From contig JAFSPS010000002.1 of the NCBI GenBank assembly GCA_017451385.1, forward strand, positions 1-64,000: a stretch of 64,000 nt of DNA, given 5' to 3'. Source of the DNA: Bacteroidales bacterium. GTDB taxonomy: Bacteria; Bacteroidota; Bacteroidia; Bacteroidales; P3. The notes under the pieces are model-generated. The model had not been told where the DNA came from. It ran no database searches and saw only the letters and a list, made by a program, of their open reading frames with translations. Position numbers and translations under genes: made by a program. Numbering within the stretch: the stretch's first letter is position 1; the number at the start of each line of letters is the position of its first letter. Of the stretch, positions 324 through 56,957 are shown piece after piece.

Positions 324-407
324 CTCAGCCTCACTCGGCATTCACCAAAACTGTGGACTGTGAATAATCACAGCCCATGGTTTTGTTTGTCATCCCATCA
401 TCGTTTC

Positions 408-2183
408 ATGAAAAACATCCGCAACTTCTGTATCATCGCACATATCGACCATGGCAAAAGCACTCTGGCCGACCGCCTGCTCGAAGTGACCAACACCGTG
501 TCGCAGCGCGACATGCAGGACCAGGTACTCGATGATATGGACCTTGAGAAGGAACGTGGCATCACCATCAAAAGCCACGCCATCCAGATGAACTACAAGG
601 ACTATGTCCTCAACCTTATCGACACCCCCGGACATGTAGACTTCAGCTACGAGGTCTCCCGCTCTATAGCGGCGTGCGAGGGCGCCCTGCTCGTCGTCGA
701 CGCCACACAAGGCATCCAAGCTCAGACCATCAGCAACCTATACCTCGCACTCGAGAACGATCTTGAAATCATCCCTGTAATGAACAAGATCGACCTCGAC
801 AGTGCCATGCCCGAAGAGGTCGCCGACGAAATCGTCGACCTGCTCGGCTGCGAACGTGAAGACATCCTCTCCTGCAGCGCCAAGACAGGTGTCGGCGTGC
901 CCCAAATCCTCGACGCCATCGTCGACCGCATACCTGCTCCCGAAGGCGACGATGAGTCCCCTCTTCAGGCCCTGGTCTTCGACTCCGTCTTCAACCCTTT
1001 CCGCGGCATCATCAGCTACTTCCGCATCATGAACGGCACACTCCGCACCAACGACCACGTCATGTTCATCAGCACCGAGAAGGACTACCATGCCGACGAA
1101 ATAGGCGTGCTCCGCCTCAACATGGAGCCCCGCAAGGAACTGCGCGCCGGCGATGTGGGCTACATCATCAGCGGCATCAAAACGTCAAAAGAGGTACGCG
1201 TTGGCGACACCATCACACACGTCGACCACCCATGCGACAAAGCCATCGACGGCTTCGAAGCTGTCAAACCCATGGTCTTCGCCGGCGTCTACCCCGTCGA
1301 TACCGACGACTACGAGGAACTCCGCGCCAGCATCGAGAAACTCCAACTCAACGACGCCTCCCTCACCTTCGAGCCGGAATCGTCACTGGCCCTCGGCTTC
1401 GGCTTCCGCTGCGGCTTTCTCGGCCTCCTCCACATGGAGATCGTGCAGGAACGCCTCACACGCGAGTTCAACATGGATGTCATCACTACCGTCCCTAACG
1501 TGCAGTACAAGGTGCAGCTCACCAACGGCACCGAAATCGACGTCTACAACCCCTCGGGTATGCCCGAACCTAACAACATCAAGGAGGTCTACGAACCTTA
1601 CATCCATGCCCAGATCATCACCAAGGCCGACTACATAGGTCCCGTCATCAAGCTCTGCATGGACAAACGCGGCATACTCAAGAACCAGAACTACCTCACC
1701 ACCGACCGCATCGAGATCACCTTCGACCTGCCTCTCGGCGAGGTGGTCTTCGACTTCTACGACAAGCTGAAGAGCATCTCCAAGGGCTATGCCTCCTTCG
1801 ACTACTACCTCAACGGCTTCAAGCCCTCCAAGCTGGTGAAACTGGAAATCCTCCTCAACGGCGACCCCGTCGACGCTCTCTCCACACTCACATACGTCGA
1901 CAACGCCTACCCCATCGGCCGCAAAATGTGCGAAAAACTCAAGGACCTCATCCCTCGCCAGCAGTTCGACGTCGCTATCCAGGCCGCCATAGGAAGCAAA
2001 ATCATTGCCCGCGAGACAGTACGCCAAGTGCGTAAGGATGTCACCGCCAAATGCTACGGCGGCGACATCACCCGCAAACGCAAACTCCTCGAAAAACAGA
2101 AGGAAGGCAAGAAACGTATGCGCCAAGTCGGCAACGTCGAAGTGCCACAAAGCGCCTTCCTCGCAGTATTGAAATTAGACTAG
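408..2183 (+). CDS. lepA: Elongation factor 4 (LepA), ribosome-associated GTPase
   Basis: LepA is a translational GTPase that acts on stalled or poorly translocated ribosomes and in 30S biogenesis. The protein has 591 residues, normal for the family. GTPase motifs are in order: AHIDHGKST at 11-19, the RGIT switch I at 50-53, DTPGH at 72-76 and NKID at 126-129, followed by EF-G-like domains and the Lys/Arg-rich LepA C-terminal domain. An in-frame GTG at 360 would add 16 residues, but the ATG at 408 gives [17 protein letters not shown], which matches the N-terminus of known LepA proteins, so I use it. The TAG stop is also the first CTAG of the downstream nonamer array. Confidence 0.97.
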
Positions 2184-2294
2184 AAACTCTAGATTATCTA
2201 GAAAGTATAGAAAATCTAGAAAGTCTAGAAAATCTAGAAAGTCTAGAAAATCTAGAAAGTCTAGAAAGTCTAGAAAATCTAGAAAGTCTAGAAA
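2178..2294 (+). repeat. Nonamer CTAG tandem array after lepA
   Basis: Thirteen consecutive 9-bp units run from the last lepA codon to a poly-A stretch just before the next gene. The commonest units are GTCTAGAAA and ATCTAGAAA; the first, second and fourth are degenerate. The first unit contains the lepA stop codon. Because the unit is three codons long, nearly every unit repeats TAG in the lepA frame. The array fills essentially the whole spacer to the next start at 2308. Confidence 0.95.
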
Positions 2295-2307: not shown

Positions 2308-2853
2308 ATGTCCACATTAGCAACTGCCCTCATCGTCCTCGCCACCGCCCTGCTGTCGGTGGCCGCCACAGGCTTCATCTTCTTCAAGATTGCCAAAACC
2401 TATTTCGACAACCAGCAGAAAAGCCTGATGCTCCAGATGAAAATCGACGAGCACAAGGAGTCCCTCAAAGTGGTCACCCCCATCCGCCTCCAAGCCTACG
2501 AGCGAATGGCTCTCTATCTGGAACGAATCTCCCCGAACAGCCTAATACTCCGCACATTCCGCCCCGGCATGGACATCAAGGCTCTTCAGATCGCCATGAC
2601 CAAGAGCATCCGCGACGAATGGGAACACAACCTCAGCCAGCAGGTCTACCTGACCACCGAGAGCTGGAACCGCATCCGCGAAGCCAAGGAGGAAATGATC
2701 AACCTCATCAACGGCAGCGCCGTCAAGTTGTCCCCCGACGCCGACCCGACCAGCCTCGCCGGCGCAATCTTCGAGAGCTGCGCCAAAAGCAAGATACCCA
2801 CCGATGAGGCCATCGAATTCATGAAACAGGAGATTCAGGAACGTTTCTCCTAA
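2308..2853 (+). CDS. Conserved membrane-anchored protein of unknown function
   Basis: The product has 181 residues. Residues 6-29 form one transmembrane segment with a short N-terminal tail, and the rest is a mostly helical, charged soluble domain. The segment after the membrane helix (about 30-70, rich in Lys, Gln and Glu) could be a coiled coil. The overall look, a single N-terminal helix followed by KIDEHKESLKVVTPIRLQAYER, resembles a short conserved protein family of Bacteroidota without known function; this is recognition by eye only. It follows lepA and the CTAG array, is co-directional with the nucleotidyltransferase gene 33 bp downstream, and may be cotranscribed with both. Confidence 0.65.
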   Translation: MSTLATALIVLATALLSVAATGFIFFKIAKTYFDNQQKSLMLQMKIDEHKESLKVVTPIRLQAYERMALYLERISPNSLILRTFRPGMDIKALQIAMTKSIRDEWEHNLSQQVYLTTESWNRIREAKEEMINLINGSAVKLSPDADPTSLAGAIFESCAKSKIPTDEAIEFMKQEIQERFS

Positions 2854-11776: not shown

Positions 11777-11823
11777 GTAGGCGGATGCCCACCCCGCCTA
11801 CAATGCCTACAATGCCTACAATG
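11777..11823 (+). repeat. CCTACAATG nonamer array carrying start codons
   Basis: Three copies of CCTACAATG occupy 11797-11823, giving in-frame ATGs at 11803, 11812 and 11821. A fourth in-frame ATG (11785) sits in the 9-nt loop of a perfect 8-bp inverted repeat, GTAGGCGG at 11777-11784 and CCGCCTAC at 11794-11801. The array overlaps the start of the following lipoprotein gene, and 24 bp of it are identical to 9217-9240. Confidence 0.9.
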
Positions 11824-13293
11824 CCTACCCCCCGTTTCTTCCTCCTTATTCCCCTCCTCCTCCCCCTTCTCACCTCGTGCGTCAAGGAGGAGACTTTCCT
11901 CTCCGACAGCTCCGCACGCCTCGAGTTCTCGTCCGAAACGGTATCTTTCGACACCGTCTTCACCGCCATGCAGACGACTACCCGTTACGTGAAAGTTTAT
12001 AACCGCTACGACGAGCCTCTCCTCATCGATGCCGTGAGCCTGGACGGACAATACGCCAACCGCTTCCGACTCAACGTCGACGGCGACACCAGCCGCATAG
12101 CCCGCAACGTGGAAATCGGAGCGCACGACAGCATCTTCATATTCGTTCAAGCCAACATCAACCCCAACGACCAAACCAACCCGTTCCTGGTCGACGCCGA
12201 CATAGTATTCAGCTTCAACCGGAAACAGCAACGCCTCCCTATCGTCGCATACGGCCGCAACGCCATCTACCACGTCCCGACCTACACCCATCAGCTTTAC
12301 AGACTTTACCTCAACCAGCGAGGTCAGGTCGACACTCTCTGGATCCCTTTCTCCATCATCGACTGTGCCAACTGGAACCACTCCCTCCCTCATGTCATCC
12401 TCGGCTACGCCGTCGTCAACAGCAACGAGACACTCCACCTCACCGCTGGCGATGAACTCTATTTCGGAAACGACGCCTGCCTCTGGGTCTACGACAGCGC
12501 CTCCCTCAACGTGCAAGGCTCCTTGCAACAACCGGTTCTTTTCACTTCCATACGCCACGACAGCTACTACGACAGCCTCCCCGGCCAATGGAGCCACGTG
12601 TGGCTCTCGCAGGGCAGCAAGGAGAACCACATCGAATGGGCTCTTATCGAGAATGCCACCTACGGTCTCCTCGTCGACACCAACGTCTCCTCCAACCCCA
12701 CACTGACCATCAGCAACTCCGTCATACGCAACCACTCAGAGATAGGTCTCCTCGGCCAGGGAGCCTACATCACCGGCGACAACCTGCTGGTCTACAACTG
12801 CGGCACCGCCCTCCTCGACCTCCACTACGGCGGACGCTACATCTTCTCCAACTCCACCTTCGCCAACTATTGGCATTACAGCTCCCGCAAGACACCGGCA
12901 GTAGTCATCAACAACTACTATGCCTTCAACGAGTCTACCATCTTCCCCCGTCCCCTACAGGAGGCCTCCTTCCGTAACTGCATCATCTACGGCAACTACA
13001 GCGGCTCCGACAACAGCGGCGAAATCAAAATCGACCGTATCGACGACTGCCCCTTCAACCTCTCGTTCTCCCACTGCCTGCTACGCTCCTCCGTCATCGG
13101 CGGCACCGATGCCACCGTAATCCTCAACCGCGACCCCCTCTTCACCAGCCCTCAGGACAACAACTACATACCGCAAAGCAACTCCCCTGCAGTCGGCAAT
13201 GGCAACGCGGCTTATCTTCTCTCCACCACCGACCTCCTCGGCAACACCCGCAACAACCCTCCTACCATCGGCGCCCTCGAACCATCAAACTAG
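11785..13293 (+). CDS. Parallel beta-helix lipoprotein
   Basis: Up to 502 residues. The signal is lipoprotein-type, with hydrophobic FFLLIPLLLPLLTSC ending in a lipobox Cys (residue 32 of the longest form), so it is probably anchored to a membrane. Residues 50-180 are a beta-sandwich-like region; about 230-480 have repeated short strands with Asn, Ser and Gly turns (ISNSVIRNHSEIGLL, FRNCIIYGNYS, FSHCLLRSS) typical of right-handed parallel beta helices, ending in NSPAVGNGNA and IGALEPSN as in many Bacteroidota surface beta-helix proteins. The start could be any of four ATGs (11785, 11803, 11812, 11821) in the nonamer array; 11821 gives the most normal signal peptide. Confidence 0.85.
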   Translation: MPTPPTMPTMPTMPTPRFFLLIPLLLPLLTSCVKEETFLSDSSARLEFSSETVSFDTVFTAMQTTTRYVKVYNRYDEPLLIDAVSLDGQYANRFRLNVDGDTSRIARNVEIGAHDSIFIFVQANINPNDQTNPFLVDADIVFSFNRKQQRLPIVAYGRNAIYHVPTYTHQLYRLYLNQRGQVDTLWIPFSIIDCANWNHSLPHVILGYAVVNSNETLHLTAGDELYFGNDACLWVYDSASLNVQGSLQQPVLFTSIRHDSYYDSLPGQWSHVWLSQGSKENHIEWALIENATYGLLVDTNVSSNPTLTISNSVIRNHSEIGLLGQGAYITGDNLLVYNCGTALLDLHYGGRYIFSNSTFANYWHYSSRKTPAVVINNYYAFNESTIFPRPLQEASFRNCIIYGNYSGSDNSGEIKIDRIDDCPFNLSFSHCLLRSSVIGGTDATVILNRDPLFTSPQDNNYIPQSNSPAVGNGNAAYLLSTTDLLGNTRNNPPTIGALEPSN

Positions 13294-13332
13294 ACTGTCT
13301 AGATAGTCTAGACAGTCTAGACAGTCTAGAAT
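13288..13332 (+). repeat. Nonamer CTAG array after the beta-helix lipoprotein
   Basis: Five 9-bp units: AACTAGACT, GTCTAGATA, GTCTAGACA twice and GTCTAGAAT. The first contains the last Asn codon and the TAG stop of the lipoprotein gene, and each further unit gives another TAG in the same frame. Confidence 0.95.
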
Positions 13333-23971: not shown

Positions 23972-24025
23972 CTCTAGTCCAGTCTAGGGCTTCTAGTCTG
24001 TCTAGAGCTTCTAGTCCAGTCTAGT
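23972..24025 (+). repeat. CTAG tandem array between clpP and dut
   Basis: Three 18-bp units (two nonamers each) of the type CTTCTAGTCCAGTCTAGN, ending 13 bp before the dut start. The clpP stop is a TAA 34 bp upstream and is not part of the array. Confidence 0.9.
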
Positions 24026-24038
24026 CTAATCCTGTCCC

Positions 24039-24476
24039 ATGCAAATCAAATTCATCAACCGCAGCCATCATCCGCTGCCCAAATACGAGACACCCCTTTC
24101 GGCAGGAATGGACCTCCGCGCCTTCCTGCCCGAAGGACCCGTCACCCTCCAACCCCTGGAGCGTACCCTCGTCAAGACCGGCCTTTTCATGGAGCTGCCC
24201 GCAGGCTACGAGGCCCAGGTGCGTCCACGCAGCGGCCTCGCTCTCAAGAAAGGTGTCACCGTCCTCAACAGCCCCGGCACCATCGATGCCGACTACCGCG
24301 GCGAGATATGCGTCATCCTCGTCAACCTCAGCAACGAGCCTTTCGTCATCTCCGACGGCGAACGCATCGCCCAGATGGTCATAGCACGCCACGAGCAGGC
24401 CGAAATCGCCGAAGTCTCCGAACTCACCGACACCGAACGCGGCACCGGCGGCTTCGGCCACACCGGCAAAAACTAA
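24039..24476 (+). CDS. dut: Deoxyuridine 5'-triphosphate nucleotidohydrolase (dUTPase)
   Basis: The enzyme hydrolyses dUTP to dUMP, keeping uracil out of DNA and supplying thymidylate synthesis; ung, which removes uracil from DNA, lies 5 kb downstream. The 145-residue trimeric-type dUTPase has all five motifs: AGMDLRA (about 23-29), [11 protein letters not shown] (about 66-76), [11 protein letters not shown] (about 84-94), GERIAQMV (about 107-114) and the mobile C-terminal [12 protein letters not shown] (about 134-145), which closes over the active site. The last motif and stop codon form the first copy of a 45-bp tandem repeat. Confidence 0.96.
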
Positions 24477-24566
24477 ACGATACGCGACACCGGCTACACC
24501 GGCTACACCGGCAAAAACTAAACGATACGCGGCACCGGCTACACCGGCTACACCGGCAAAAAACCA
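24438..24566 (+). repeat. 45-bp tandem duplication of the dut 3' end
   Basis: Copy 1 (24438-24482) encodes the end of dUTPase motif 5 and its TAA. Copy 2 (24483-24527) matches its beginning and end, including AAAAACTAAACGATA. Copy 3 (24528-24566) is partial and lacks the stop. In copies 2 and 3 the middle is replaced by GGCTACACC nonamers. All copies stay in the dut frame because 45 bp is 15 codons. Confidence 0.9.
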
Positions 24567-28826: not shown

Positions 28827-29014
28827 AGCCCTATAAGATAGTCTAGATAGTAAATAGTCCAGAGCTTCTAGTCCAGTCCAGAGCTTCTAGTCCAGTCCAG
28901 AGCTTCTAGTCCAGTCTAGAGCTTCTAGTCCAGTCCAGAGCTTCTAGTCCAGTCTGGAGCTTCTAGTCCAGTCTGGAGCTTCTAGTCCAGTCCAGAGCTT
29001 CTAGTCCAGTCTAG
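28821..29014 (+). repeat. Long CTAG-bearing array between lysS and the MBL gene
   Basis: The region begins with the CTAG of the lysS stop codon (28823-28826), passes through several in-frame TAG/TAA codons, and then contains eight near-perfect 19-bp units (28860-29011) with consensus CAGAGCTTCTAGTCCAGTC. The units differ only in their first two bases (CA, TA or TG). It fills nearly the whole spacer before the next start at 29033. Confidence 0.95.
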
Positions 29015-29668: not shown

Positions 29669-29704
29669 AATCTAGACAGTCTAGATAATCTAGATAATCT
29701 AGGA
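29669..29704 (+). repeat. Nonamer CTAG array between the MBL gene and ung
   Basis: Four 9-bp units: AATCTAGAC, AGTCTAGAT, AATCTAGAT, AATCTAGGA. It starts immediately after the TAA stop and ends 16 bp before the ung start. Here the CTAG is not in the stop-codon frame. Confidence 0.95.
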
Positions 29705-31328: not shown

Positions 31329-31401
31329 GCCGATGTAACTCAGTTGGTAGAGTAGCTGATTTGTAATCAGCCTGTCGGGGGTTCGAGTCCCTTCATCGGC
31401 T
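31329..31401 (+). tRNA. tRNA-Thr (TGT)
   Basis: Full cloverleaf of 73 nt: acceptor GCCGATG pairs with CATCGGC, D-arm CTCAGTTGGTAGAG, anticodon stem CTGAT/ATCAG around loop with TGT, and T-loop GGTTCGAGTCC. CCA is not encoded. Confidence 0.95.
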
Positions 31402-31438
31402 CGAGTTCCATCTCAATCTTCCAATTGAGGTCGGATAT

Positions 31439-31520
31439 GGGGGAGTCGCATAGCGGCAATTGCAACAGACTGTAAATCTGTCCTCTTCGGAGTTCGGTGG
31501 TTCGAGTCCACCCTCCCCCA
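31439..31520 (+). tRNA. tRNA-Tyr (GTA)
   Basis: 82 nt with acceptor GGGGGAG/CTCCCCC, anticodon GTA in the loop CTGTAAA, and a long class II variable arm (CCTCTTCGGAG), as required for tRNA-Tyr. Discriminator A; CCA is not encoded. Confidence 0.95.
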
Positions 31521-31538
31521 CAAGAAACCTACAGAGAA

Positions 31539-31611
31539 GCGGAAGTAGCTCATTTGGTAGAGCGATAGCCTTCCAAGCTATAGGTGGCGGGTTCGAGCCC
31601 CGTCTTCCGCT
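31539..31611 (+). tRNA. tRNA-Gly (TCC)
   Basis: 73 nt with acceptor GCGGAAG/CTTCCGC, anticodon stem ATAGC/GCTAT and loop CTTCCAA (anticodon TCC), and T-loop GGTTCGAGCCC. CCA is not encoded. Confidence 0.95.
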
Positions 31612-31666
31612 CTGAATCAGCAAGGCGGAGAACGGCAAGCCGCCAAATGCTTCGAAAGAGGTTCAC

Positions 31667-31739
<73 letters not shown>

Positions 31740-31780
31740 CTTTTTTAGTGCAAAAGTGAGTGAGAATCGTCAGTTTTTGA

Positions 31781-31803
31781 AGAGACGCAACCCTTGCGCC
31801 TCT
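31781..31803 (+). repeat. Near-perfect palindrome in the tRNA-tuf spacer
   Basis: AGAGACGCAA at 31781-31790 and TTGCGCCTCT at 31794-31803 form a 10-bp stem with one mismatch and a CCC loop. No T-run follows, so it is not a typical terminator. It resembles short dispersed palindromic elements. Confidence 0.6.
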
Positions 31804-31923
31804 ATGCTTGTGGAAAGAAAACAGCCTTCAACAAATTATCAACAACCCAATCGATTCTCGAAACACTTTTCACTATTCACCAGAAAAAAAATTCATTTTA
31901 ATACGTATTAAACATTTCAAACA

Positions 31924-33120
31924 ATGGCAAAAGAAAAATTTGATCGTTCTAAACCGCACGTCAACATTGGTACTATCGGTCACGTCGACCACGGTAAGAC
32001 CACTTTGACCGCTGCTATCACCCAGGTTCTGGCCGCCAAAGGTCTCTCCGAGGTTAAGTCCTTCGACGCTATCGACTCCGCTCCCGAAGAGAAAGAGCGT
32101 GGTATCACCATCAACACCGCTCACGTCGAGTATCAGACCGCCAAGCGTCACTACGCTCACGTTGACTGCCCTGGCCACGCCGACTATGTGAAGAACATGG
32201 TTACTGGTGCTGCCCAGATGGACGGTGCTATCCTTGTCGTCGCTGCTACCGATGGTCCTATGCCACAGACCCGCGAGCATATCCTTCTCGCCCGTCAGGT
32301 TGGTGTTCCCCAGCTTGTTGTTTTCATGAACAAGTGCGACCTCGTTGACGACCCCGAGCTTCTCGACCTCGTTGAGATGGAAATCCGTGAGCTCCTGAGC
32401 TCCTACGAGTTCGACGGCGACAATATCCCCGTTATCCGTGGCTCCGCCCTCGCCGCCCTCAATGGCGAAGACCCCAACGGTATGGGTGTTTCGGCTGTTA
32501 AAAAACTTATGGACACCGTCGATGAGTTCATCCCCGAGCCTGTCCGTCAGAAAGATAAAGACTTCTTGATGCCCGTTGAGGACGTCTTCTCCATCACCGG
32601 CCGTGGTACTGTGGCTACCGGTCGTATCGAGACTGGTGTTATCCACACCTCCGACCCCGTTGACATCATCGGTATGGGTGCCGAGAAACTCAAGAGCGTC
32701 GTCACCGGCGTTGAGATGTTCCGCAAAATCCTCGACGAGGGTGAAGCTGGCGACAACGTAGGTCTGCTCCTCCGCGGTATCGACAAGGACGAAATCCGTC
32801 GTGGTATGGTTATCGCCAAGCCCGGCTCGGTGCATCCTCACCACAAATTCGAGGCTACCGTCTATATCCTCAAGAAAGAGGAAGGCGGCCGTCACACCCC
32901 ATTCAAAAACAACTACCGTCCTCAGTTCTACTTCCGTACCACTGACGTTACCGGTACCATCATGCTCCCCGAGGGCCGCGAGATGGTTATGCCTGGTGAC
33001 CACTTGACCATCACCGTCGAGCTCATCAGCGACATCGCTCTGAACGAGAACCTCCGCTTCGCTATCCGCGAGGGTGGCCGTACCGTTGGCTCCGGTCAGG
33101 TTACTAAGATTATTGAATAA
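31924..33120 (+). CDS. tuf: Elongation factor Tu
   Basis: EF-Tu carries aminoacyl-tRNA to the ribosome. The 398-residue protein has the GTPase motifs GHVDHGKTT (19-27), RGIT switch [10 protein letters not shown] (about 81-89) and NKCD (about 136-139), followed by domains II and III with GGRHTPF and [16 protein letters not shown]. Codon use is strongly biased with more T-ending codons than the genes to its left. The order tRNAs-tuf-tRNA-Trp-secE-nusG-rplKAJL-rpoBC is the standard arrangement in Bacteroidota. Confidence 0.99.
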
Positions 33121-33137
33121 TCTCAATAACTGTCACA

Positions 33138-33160
33138 AGTGGCGGCCATGCGCCGCCACT
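33138..33160 (+). terminator. Hairpin between tuf and tRNA-Trp
   Basis: AGTGGCGG (33138-33145) and CCGCCACT (33153-33160) form a perfect 8-bp GC-rich stem with a 7-nt loop, 18 bp after the tuf stop. No U-run follows, so it may be a processing or attenuation structure rather than a full terminator. Confidence 0.5.
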
Positions 33161-33164
33161 TATT

Positions 33165-33235
33165 AGGGGCATAGTTAAATGGCATAATGACGGTCTCCAA
33201 AACCGCAGTTGGGAGTTCGATTCTCTCTGCCCCTG
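33165..33235 (+). tRNA. tRNA-Trp (CCA)
   Basis: 71 nt with acceptor AGGGGCA/TGCCCCT and anticodon CCA in loop CTCCAAA. The bases after the discriminator (33236-33238) are CCA, so the 3' end appears to be encoded, unlike in the other tRNAs here. Confidence 0.93.
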
Positions 33236-33253
33236 CCAAAAGAATATAATAAG

Positions 33254-56789: not shown

Positions 56790-56798
56790 GGTAGATGG

Positions 56799-56871
56799 TG
56801 ACTAATCTGGGGCTCGAACCCAGGACCCCATCCTTAAAAGGGATGTGCTCTACCTGCTGAGCTAATTAGTC
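56799..56871 (-). tRNA. tRNA-Lys (TTT), copy 1
   Basis: 73 nt on the minus strand: acceptor GACTAAT/ATTAGTC, anticodon stem CATCC/GGATG with loop CTTTTAA (anticodon TTT) and T-loop GGTTCGAGCCC. CCA is not encoded. Confidence 0.95.
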
Positions 56872-56884
56872 GGAGCCTTTAATG

Positions 56885-56957
56885 TGACTAATCTGGGGCT
56901 CGAACCCAGGACCCCATCCTTAAAAGGGATGTGCTCTACCTGCTGAGCTAATTAGTC
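56885..56957 (-). tRNA. tRNA-Lys (TTT), copy 2
   Basis: Identical in sequence to the copy at 56799-56871, with a 13-bp spacer, so a recent tandem duplication is likely. Confidence 0.95.

Follow-up and report, generated by a model that had tools for sequence, protein, structure and literature searches.

Why should the short spacer behind lepA in a Bacteroidales bacterium be occupied by a 9-bp repeat built around CTAG, and did that repeat, as the initial annotation proposed, grow out of the stop codon at which it begins? The locus lies near the left end of the window, by which we mean the whole stretch of 64,000 nucleotides that was analysed (contig JAFSPS010000002.1, positions 1 to 64,000). 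It comprises the following features.

360..2183, forward strand: lepA, encoding the GTP-binding translation factor LepA (Pfam LepA_C and GTP_EFTU)
408, forward strand: ATG, alternative start of lepA
2180..2294, no strand assigned: CTAG-N5 array in the lepA-DUF7935 spacer, 13 units counted from 2178 (12 CTAG, one ATAG)
2308..2853, forward strand: DUF7935 gene (PF25589), downstream of the array

The array is real. Thirteen units of 9 bp run from 2178 to 2294, and Tandem Repeats Finder reports period 9 for 2180-2294, with 12.8 copies and 84% matches. All thirteen units had been described as containing CTAG; the number of units stands, and the word is exact in 12 of them, the unit at 2207 reading ATAG. 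The TAG stop of lepA sits within the first CTAG (2180-2183, the ORF ending at 2183), as had been observed, and because a step of 9 keeps the frame and TAG is present in ATAG too, every one of the 13 units places a TAG in the lepA frame. The array occupies 2184-2294 of the 124-bp spacer (2184-2307) and is separated from the start codon of the DUF7935 gene by 13 A-rich bases. CTAG is indeed rare here, as had been stated of bacteria in general: the window holds 49 occurrences against a shuffle mean of 178, and in 80 loci of the genus (1,315,523 bp) it is the rarest palindromic tetramer, with 447 occurrences. An assembly artefact is an unlikely source of the repeat. The separately assembled conspecific MAG RGIG3228 (Bacteroidales, goat reticulum) contains a stretch that is 99.7% identical to the window, with 33 mismatches over 12,850 bp and none in the array, and related arrays occur in many assemblies.

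Growth by duplication, the more general part of the proposal, agrees well with the units themselves: the later ones alternate between the spacers AAAGT and AAAAT and look like the result of 18-bp slippage. The derivation from the gene's own stop is not supported when the sister species is considered (UBA1223; locus L137, genome G436), the DUF7935 protein of which is 92% identical. There the same spacer also carries a CTAG array, yet lepA ends in TAA and the array begins 6 nt later. Few of the other arrays overlap a stop codon. Among 24 arrays of at least three CTAG in the window species and its sister, 11 lie between forward-strand genes, 3 between reverse-strand genes and 3 between divergent genes; 4 overlap a TAG stop, 2 lie inside a called frame (one being the array at window 29672, whose host frame is probably no gene) and 1 sits at a contig end. 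The overlap involves the first CTAG in three cases (window 2180, window 13290 and L310:10213) and the last CTAG in one. These four are what speaks for an array that grew from the stop codon and supplied serial in-frame stops. Against it weigh, besides the sister's TAA, the mere 4 overlaps in 24 and the sampled arrays of two related genomes, G004 and G001, 35 of 44 of which lie inside called frames that are never the TAG frame. We therefore reject the stop-codon ladder both as function and as origin and regard it as very improbable. The overlap would rather be a by-product of arrays that extend to the end of a gene in the single frame in which TAG is read; a ladder of in-frame stops can arise without selection as stops. 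It had also been suggested that the copy number could alter the distance to the next gene. The number differs between species (see the nqrB tail below), whereas the only conspecific MAG that was compared has exactly the same lepA array.

Four further arrays and a candidate breakpoint were found in the window.

13290..13329, no strand assigned: second array, five CTAG at 9 bp; the first CTAG contains the TAG stop of the ORF at 11785-13293, and ruvA is the next gene
23974..24024, no strand assigned: third array, six CTAG at 9-10 bp, in the spacer that follows a Clp-protease-family gene
28868..29014, no strand assigned: fourth array, ten CTAG in a 19-bp supra-unit (CTAGTCCAGT + CYRGAGCTT), with CCAG and CTGG variants
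29672..29702, no strand assigned: fifth array, four CTAG at 9 bp, with a metallo-beta-lactamase-fold gene on one side and a UDG-family gene on the other
31329..33238, no strand assigned: tRNA-tuf cluster, possible chimeric join, with a shift in CTAG and GATC density nearby

Together the five arrays hold 37 of the 49 CTAGs in the window (12+5+6+10+4). All of them lie to the left of the tRNA-tuf cluster, and none was found further right on the 144-kb contig. CTAG drops from 48 occurrences in the first 32 kb of the window to 1 in the last 32 kb, and GATC from 28 to 2. The tetranucleotide correlation is 0.78-0.89 inside the left part and 0.31-0.61 between the left part and the last 20 kb, so that the contig may be chimeric near 31-33 kb, to judge from its composition. 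A single join at that place is opposed by the segment of 34-44 kb, whose correlation is higher with the left part (0.63-0.69) than with the last 20 kb (0.51-0.54). Since the window is possibly chimeric and its assembly holds two copies of the DUF7935 gene, counts in that assembly may mislead; it contains 18 three-unit matches at 9 bp, 15 of which are on the window contig, and this clustering was given no weight because of the possible chimerism. Two other repeats in the window were noted in passing. At 24437-24562 there are 45-bp repeats of a gene 3' end (CACCGGCTA units), where the sister has a CTAG array after the stop codon, and at 56798-56957 a perfect 86-bp tandem duplication overlaps two tRNA-Lys(ttt) genes.

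The relatives listed for the window are mostly MAGs from rumen or gut, including Candidatus Colimorpha pelethequi and bacterium P3. Of 25 genomes from one genus of rumen Bacteroidales, 17 have at least four CTAG at 9 bp, compared with none of 16 genomes of other families; the reversed pattern, GATC, gave no match in the same comparison. When at least five CTAG at 9 bp were demanded across the phylum, the window's own genome and 1 of 394 others were positive, the latter through a uniform CTAGGCGGA repeat. The GATC pattern is positive in several genomes phylum-wide, mostly of the distant family f35. Five of these genomes were inspected; the GATC-N5 arrays of L276-L282 (family f35) share the 9-bp step, and several have complementary outer spacers. 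Within the genus, a 220,133-bp sample of RGIG3228 (G435) has 8 arrays of at least three CTAG, which hold 48 of its 106 CTAGs. The spacing 9 occurs 38 times in this sample against 0.05 by chance and accounts for 38 of the 43 CTAG spacings up to 30 bp; extrapolation gives roughly eighty arrays per genome for the window species. In the 80 genus loci CTAG is spaced by 9 in 35 cases, by 10 in four and by 11 in eight, whereas GATC, spaced by 9 in 6 cases, shows no peak. Taken together, (CTAG-N5)n is a real family of repeats, unusual in its signature, that in the genomes searched is restricted to a single genus of rumen Bacteroidales.

The abundance of the arrays changes abruptly between close relatives. 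Three-unit matches (9- or 10-bp steps) number 334 in RGIG3228 (L136), 308 in the sister (L137), and 1, 7, 0, 10 and 0 in the genomes of L138, L139, L144, L146 and L148, these being the genomes behind seven of the 80 genus loci. In the lepA-DUF7935 spacer L136 and L137 have arrays, L138 has a relic of two CTAG 18 bp apart after a TAA, and L139-L148 have none, where the sequence of L141 ends inside the spacer and L147 has one CTAG at the lepA end. Of the three window arrays that are covered by a sister contig, those at 2180 and 23974 are matched by arrays (the latter by one of 13 CTAG in the corresponding spacer) and that at 13290 is not, the aligned place in G436 being without array; the sister in turn bears arrays at sites where the window has none. 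Certain sites recur across species, namely the lepA spacer, the clpP spacer, window 29672 (where G004 has an array at the matching place), the nqrB tail, an ABC-F linker and a pseudouridine synthase. At the nqrB tail the number of CTAGs is 6 in G002, 4 in G004, 2 in G015, 1 in G006 and 0 in G000, G005, G012 and G014, the eight genomes with a recovered tail. The slot in the ABC-F linker is filled by CTAG units in G004; the 9-bp units found there in G001, G009 and G015 resemble TCAGAATAA, G007 has a less strict CAGA form, and the units of G002 are GACCTTAAG.

The anatomy of the units reveals a clear division between core and spacer. In 25 arrays of G004 we counted 125 spacers, of which 56 are distinct, unlike the near-identical units of a homogeneous VNTR or minisatellite; the change of copy number between lineages in steps of one unit, by which minisatellites are also known, is seen at the nqrB tail. 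The spacers are AT-rich, with 14% GC in G004 and 19% in G001, compared with 58-59% in the sampled contigs of both genomes (58% for G004:C1). Within a G004 array two spacers share about 3.0 of 5 positions at each lag from 1 to 4, compared with 2.1 for spacers of different arrays; within a G001 array they share about 3 of 5. In the other genomes pooled, the agreement drops over lags 1-4 from 2.80 to 2.58, 2.46 and 1.92. Spacers of the window arrays resemble one another more closely (3.6-4.5 of 5 at lags 1-3), and their agreement is higher at lags 2-5 than at lag 1 (4.3 at lag 2 against 3.6 at lag 1). The core behaves very differently from the spacers. Midway between two CTAGs that are 18 bp apart, the word is again CTAG in 101 of 102 cases in G004, 70 of 73 in G001, 78 of 86 in the other genomes pooled, 29 of 31 in G435, 54 of 55 in G436 and 15 of 16 in the window. 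Altered cores mostly carry single changes (such as CTGG, CCAG and ATAG).

The same division appears when matching arrays are aligned. In 15 pairs, with columns counted from both sides, CTAG differs at 32 of 714 sites (4.5%), the spacers at 228 of 703 (32%) and the flanks at 2758 of 14649 (19%). All 15 pairs have a lower rate for CTAG than for the flank, and 14 of them also a lower rate than for the spacers, the remaining pair being tied at zero, but the set is biased in that both members were required to carry an array, the aligner was anchored on CTAG and the pairs are not independent. The first requirement favours an apparent conservation of CTAG. The 15 pairs were kept out of 20 and represent 11 independent sets; two of the five that were dropped were neighbouring arrays of one locus matching themselves, and three were short one-sided matches. 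In one G001/G004 pair with 7 CTAG the spacers are as invariant as the core, which speaks against freely changing spacers. The paralogous arrays L099:2982 and L108:201 of G004 have right flanks that differ at 5 of 196 positions, spacers that differ at 12 of 60 counted and cores that differ at 0 of 56. These two arrays also differ in unit number.

The counterpart in G004 of one G001 array reads CCAG, CCAG, CTGG and CAAG at the same 9-bp steps, which may represent the decay of an array. Because mutated units are often CCAG or CTGG, Vsr (PF03852) was considered as an eraser of CTAG. In the clade of the window the array-rich G435 and G436 are without a Vsr match and the array-poor G437-G441 have one in 5 of 5 (Fisher p 0.048, from incomplete MAGs). 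Over 24 other genomes of the genus, likewise including incomplete MAGs, Vsr and array count are not related (Mann-Whitney p 0.50), and G004, with 111 matches, has Vsr. The explanation was not adopted.

With respect to genes, the arrays of different species are placed differently. In contrast to the mainly intergenic arrays of the window species and its sister, those of G004 and G001 are found inside called open frames of at least 100 codons in 19 of 25 and 16 of 19 sampled cases, although not all of these frames are established genes. They are read as CTA|GNN|NNN or NCT|AGN|NNN and encode tripeptides of the type Leu-acidic-x or Ser/Thr-Arg/Ser-x (judged from 34 of the 35 peptides). Arrays in the former frame retain CTA, which makes up only 4-6% of Leu codons. 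A Pfam match was obtained for 7 of 10 host frames scanned (an alpha-2-macroglobulin protein with two arrays, GH92, an SSF transporter, NqrA, an FAD enzyme, a TonB-linked receptor and a pseudouridine synthase). In L187 and L207 an array lies within the signal peptide of a lipoprotein-like gene adjoining the DUF7935 gene, and L044 matches both. By eye, no common theme connects the neighbours and hosts listed, i.e. lepA, ruvA, Clp protease, a class II (D/K/N) tRNA synthetase, A2M, GH92, NqrA and the SSF transporter. The codirectional intergenic arrays of the window species and its sister have an A-rich sense strand in 12 of 15 cases (12 against 2, one tie, p 0.013), and their arrays lie 15-19 bp from the next start in 6 of 21 cases. 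None lies between convergent genes in these two species, but the background has just 22 convergent spacers among 169, too small a number for a conclusion; G004 has three arrays in such spacers.

What, then, keeps the arrays as they are? They have a fixed 9-bp step, a near-invariant CTAG, AT-rich spacers that change, copy numbers that differ between species and a tendency to recur at matching sites. The reading we put first, while giving it slightly less than an even chance, is that a putative cellular factor reading CTAG maintains the arrays, most likely a DNA-binding protein at tandem CTAG sites. Units would be gained and lost through slippage or unequal exchange, the letters of the spacers would then drift, and CTAG would be held by selection because the factor reads it, presumably as a protein that occupies tandem CTAGs about one helical turn apart. 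The arrays would persist where sequence is tolerated, as in intercistronic spacers, gene ends, signal peptides and linkers. Such selection would account for the survival of the core both between cistrons and within coding sequence, where it is read in one frame as the rare codon CTA. The low divergence of CTAG in the pairs, the intact middle words, the AT-rich spacers, the peak at spacing 9, the recurring sites and the retention of CTA were counted in favour of such a reader, as were the CTAG-containing repressor sites of E. coli described below. On the other side we counted the selection of the pairs, the anchoring of the aligner, the pair with invariant spacers, the lack of a visible theme among nearby genes and the existence of CGGA arrays with period 11 (see below). 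In addition, two close relatives with 91-92% identity in the DUF7935 protein are nearly free of arrays (the 1 and 7 matches versus 334 and 308), so that any function must be dispensable. The mechanism as a whole is what we infer, with support, from these comparisons.

The main and strong rival is a neutral satellite, which would reflect a lineage-specific tendency to slippage in tolerated sequence, the apparent constraint on CTAG stemming in part from the fact that the arrays were found by their CTAG; we hold it to be possible, if on the unlikely side. Its strength lies in the many other short-period arrays of the genus and in the ABC-F linker slot, which other species fill with 9-bp units of another sequence. 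When an invariant 5-mer and two or more spacers are demanded, arrays are common in the 80 loci, 42 having period 11, 23 period 7, 8 period 8, 8 period 9 and 7 period 10, and one Markov shuffle of the loci contains none. If tetramer arrays of four units must have three distinct spacers, CTAG is foremost at period 9 with 4, and CGGA has 11 at period 11, likewise with differing spacers. CTAG arrays are thus a minority of the short-period arrays of the genus, and the abundance of CGGA and of period 11 speaks for a general tendency to make repeats or else for more than one reader. The higher agreement of window spacers at lag 2 is what slippage by 18 bp gives, and the appearance and disappearance of arrays between sister species also suits a neutral origin. 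However, five of the six sets have an intact middle CTAG in 94-99% of cases (91% in the pooled others), although about 2 of 5 spacer positions differ in G004 and G001, and equal decay would have left far fewer intact cores. The spacers are AT-rich in GC-rich genomes, and there is no evident reason for slippage to pick the rarest palindromic word.

The arrays might instead act as RNA. In intercistronic mRNA (UCUAGANNN)n is modelled to form a regular quasi-hairpin that would affect the stability or translation of the adjoining cistrons, a proposal that appears quite unlikely to us. The RNA of the lepA-spacer array, the single one folded, has a predicted energy of -41.3 kcal/mol (z -6.0), with 6-bp UCUAGA helices and 3x3 loops. 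The A-rich sense strand, which a symmetric DNA site does not predict and which was therefore counted against a DNA reader, and the array-to-start distances fit an RNA element, and stem-loops have been modelled in CTAG-containing intergenic regions of Salmonella (available text of PMC5337935). Yet many self-complementary words would fold equally well and the core is nearly always CTAG; the bases flanking CTAG pair barely above expectation at the first position (58 of 100, 49.9 expected) and below it at the second (28, 34.5 expected); and most sampled arrays of G004 and G001 are inside called frames. A whole-array palindrome was not seen in some spacer series compared by eye, and Rfam models at gathering score matched only tRNAs across the window, the array matching no known RNA family. 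DNA reading at near-helical spacing stays our first choice, with a role in RNA kept open by the quasi-hairpins and the A-richness. Finally, the units could be written rather than copied. A process in the genus would extend CTAG sites 9 bp at a time with five largely untemplated AT-rich bases, whereby arrays with random spacers would arise in spacers and inside genes, where they would be tolerated because 9 bp keeps the frame, and would spread or vanish with the putative writer. The flat agreement of G004 spacers over lags 1-4 is as independent spacers would give, and the near-identical paralogous flanks carry different spacers around an unchanged CTAG. As the agreement falls with lag in the pooled genomes and the window arrays show copying in 18-bp steps, we attach little probability to a writer.

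Short near-palindromic cores repeated about one helical turn apart are a property of the MetJ and TrpR operator arrays, the met-box step being 8 bp. The Trp and Met repressor sites are the nearest logic to the CTAG arrays: the core is short and the spacing 9 dominates (38 of 43). Unlike those operators the CTAG arrays are many per genome, have up to 13 units, occur in coding frames too and have, by eye, no coherent set of downstream genes. In E. coli, hexanucleotides containing CTAG are described as core binding sites of the two repressors (available text of PMC1166578). The nearest report on the word itself concerns Salmonella, where the rare CTAG is kept in conserved intergenic sequences and stem-loops were modelled; the available text of PMC5337935 describes no arrays (the words tandem and repeat are absent from it). 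With regard to coding palindromic repeats, the nearest are the PARCEL elements, which according to the available text of PMC2996958 are sequence-variable tandem repeats with dyad symmetry that code for repeat peptides, with units of 25 residues (75 nt) in ORFs lacking assigned functions. The CTAG unit has 9 bp, or 3 residues, instead of a 25-residue repeat domain, and is found in spacers and in genes with known domains.

REP/BIME elements are many short palindromic repeats in spacers, each an extragenic palindromic sequence of 20-40 nt. The CTAG arrays are without such a conserved palindrome; only 4 bp of each 9-bp unit are fixed, the spacers change, and 35 of the 44 sampled arrays of G004 and G001 are in called open frames. 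The palindromic elements of Rickettsia, longer hairpin elements, resemble them in being in frame, and differ from a unit of 9 bp with only 4 bp fixed. They are described as in-frame palindromic insertions in assorted housekeeping genes (available text of PMC2996958). CTAG-N5 arrays are absent from the available texts of PMC1166578, PMC5337935 and PMC2996958, and no description was found among the best matches (e.g. the best 8 of 1,836) in the open-licence PMC literature, judged by titles and the starts of abstracts. The family is significant in that the rarest palindromic tetramer of these genomes recurs at near-helical steps, each genome having many such arrays, both in spacers and in frame within genes, and is kept while the sequence between its copies changes. 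Should a factor read CTAG, gut Bacteroidales would have a hitherto undescribed genome-wide system that reads DNA or RNA; without a reader, the arrays would reveal a repeat-making process that adds tracts of Leu-acidic-x or Ser-Arg-x tripeptides to proteins.

Several other repeats of the genus were observed beside the CTAG arrays. Two-armed inverted arrays with period 9 occur near the DUF7935 gene (L045, L174, L180, L181 and L200), for instance (GACAACNNN)n ... (NNNGTTGTC)n; by eye the spacers of L045 are not complementary between the arms, and one of the L180 arms reads as a lipoprotein signal peptide. Two-armed elements of a similar kind, with GGAGTGAAAN units and a period of mostly 10, are present at L176:10529, L190:10484 and L210:10545. 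At L174:1711, L193:9156 and 18469, L157:1952, L214:18908 and others there are long near-perfect palindromes of 11-bp units, the motif of which differs by species, period 11 being the commonest array period in the 80 loci.
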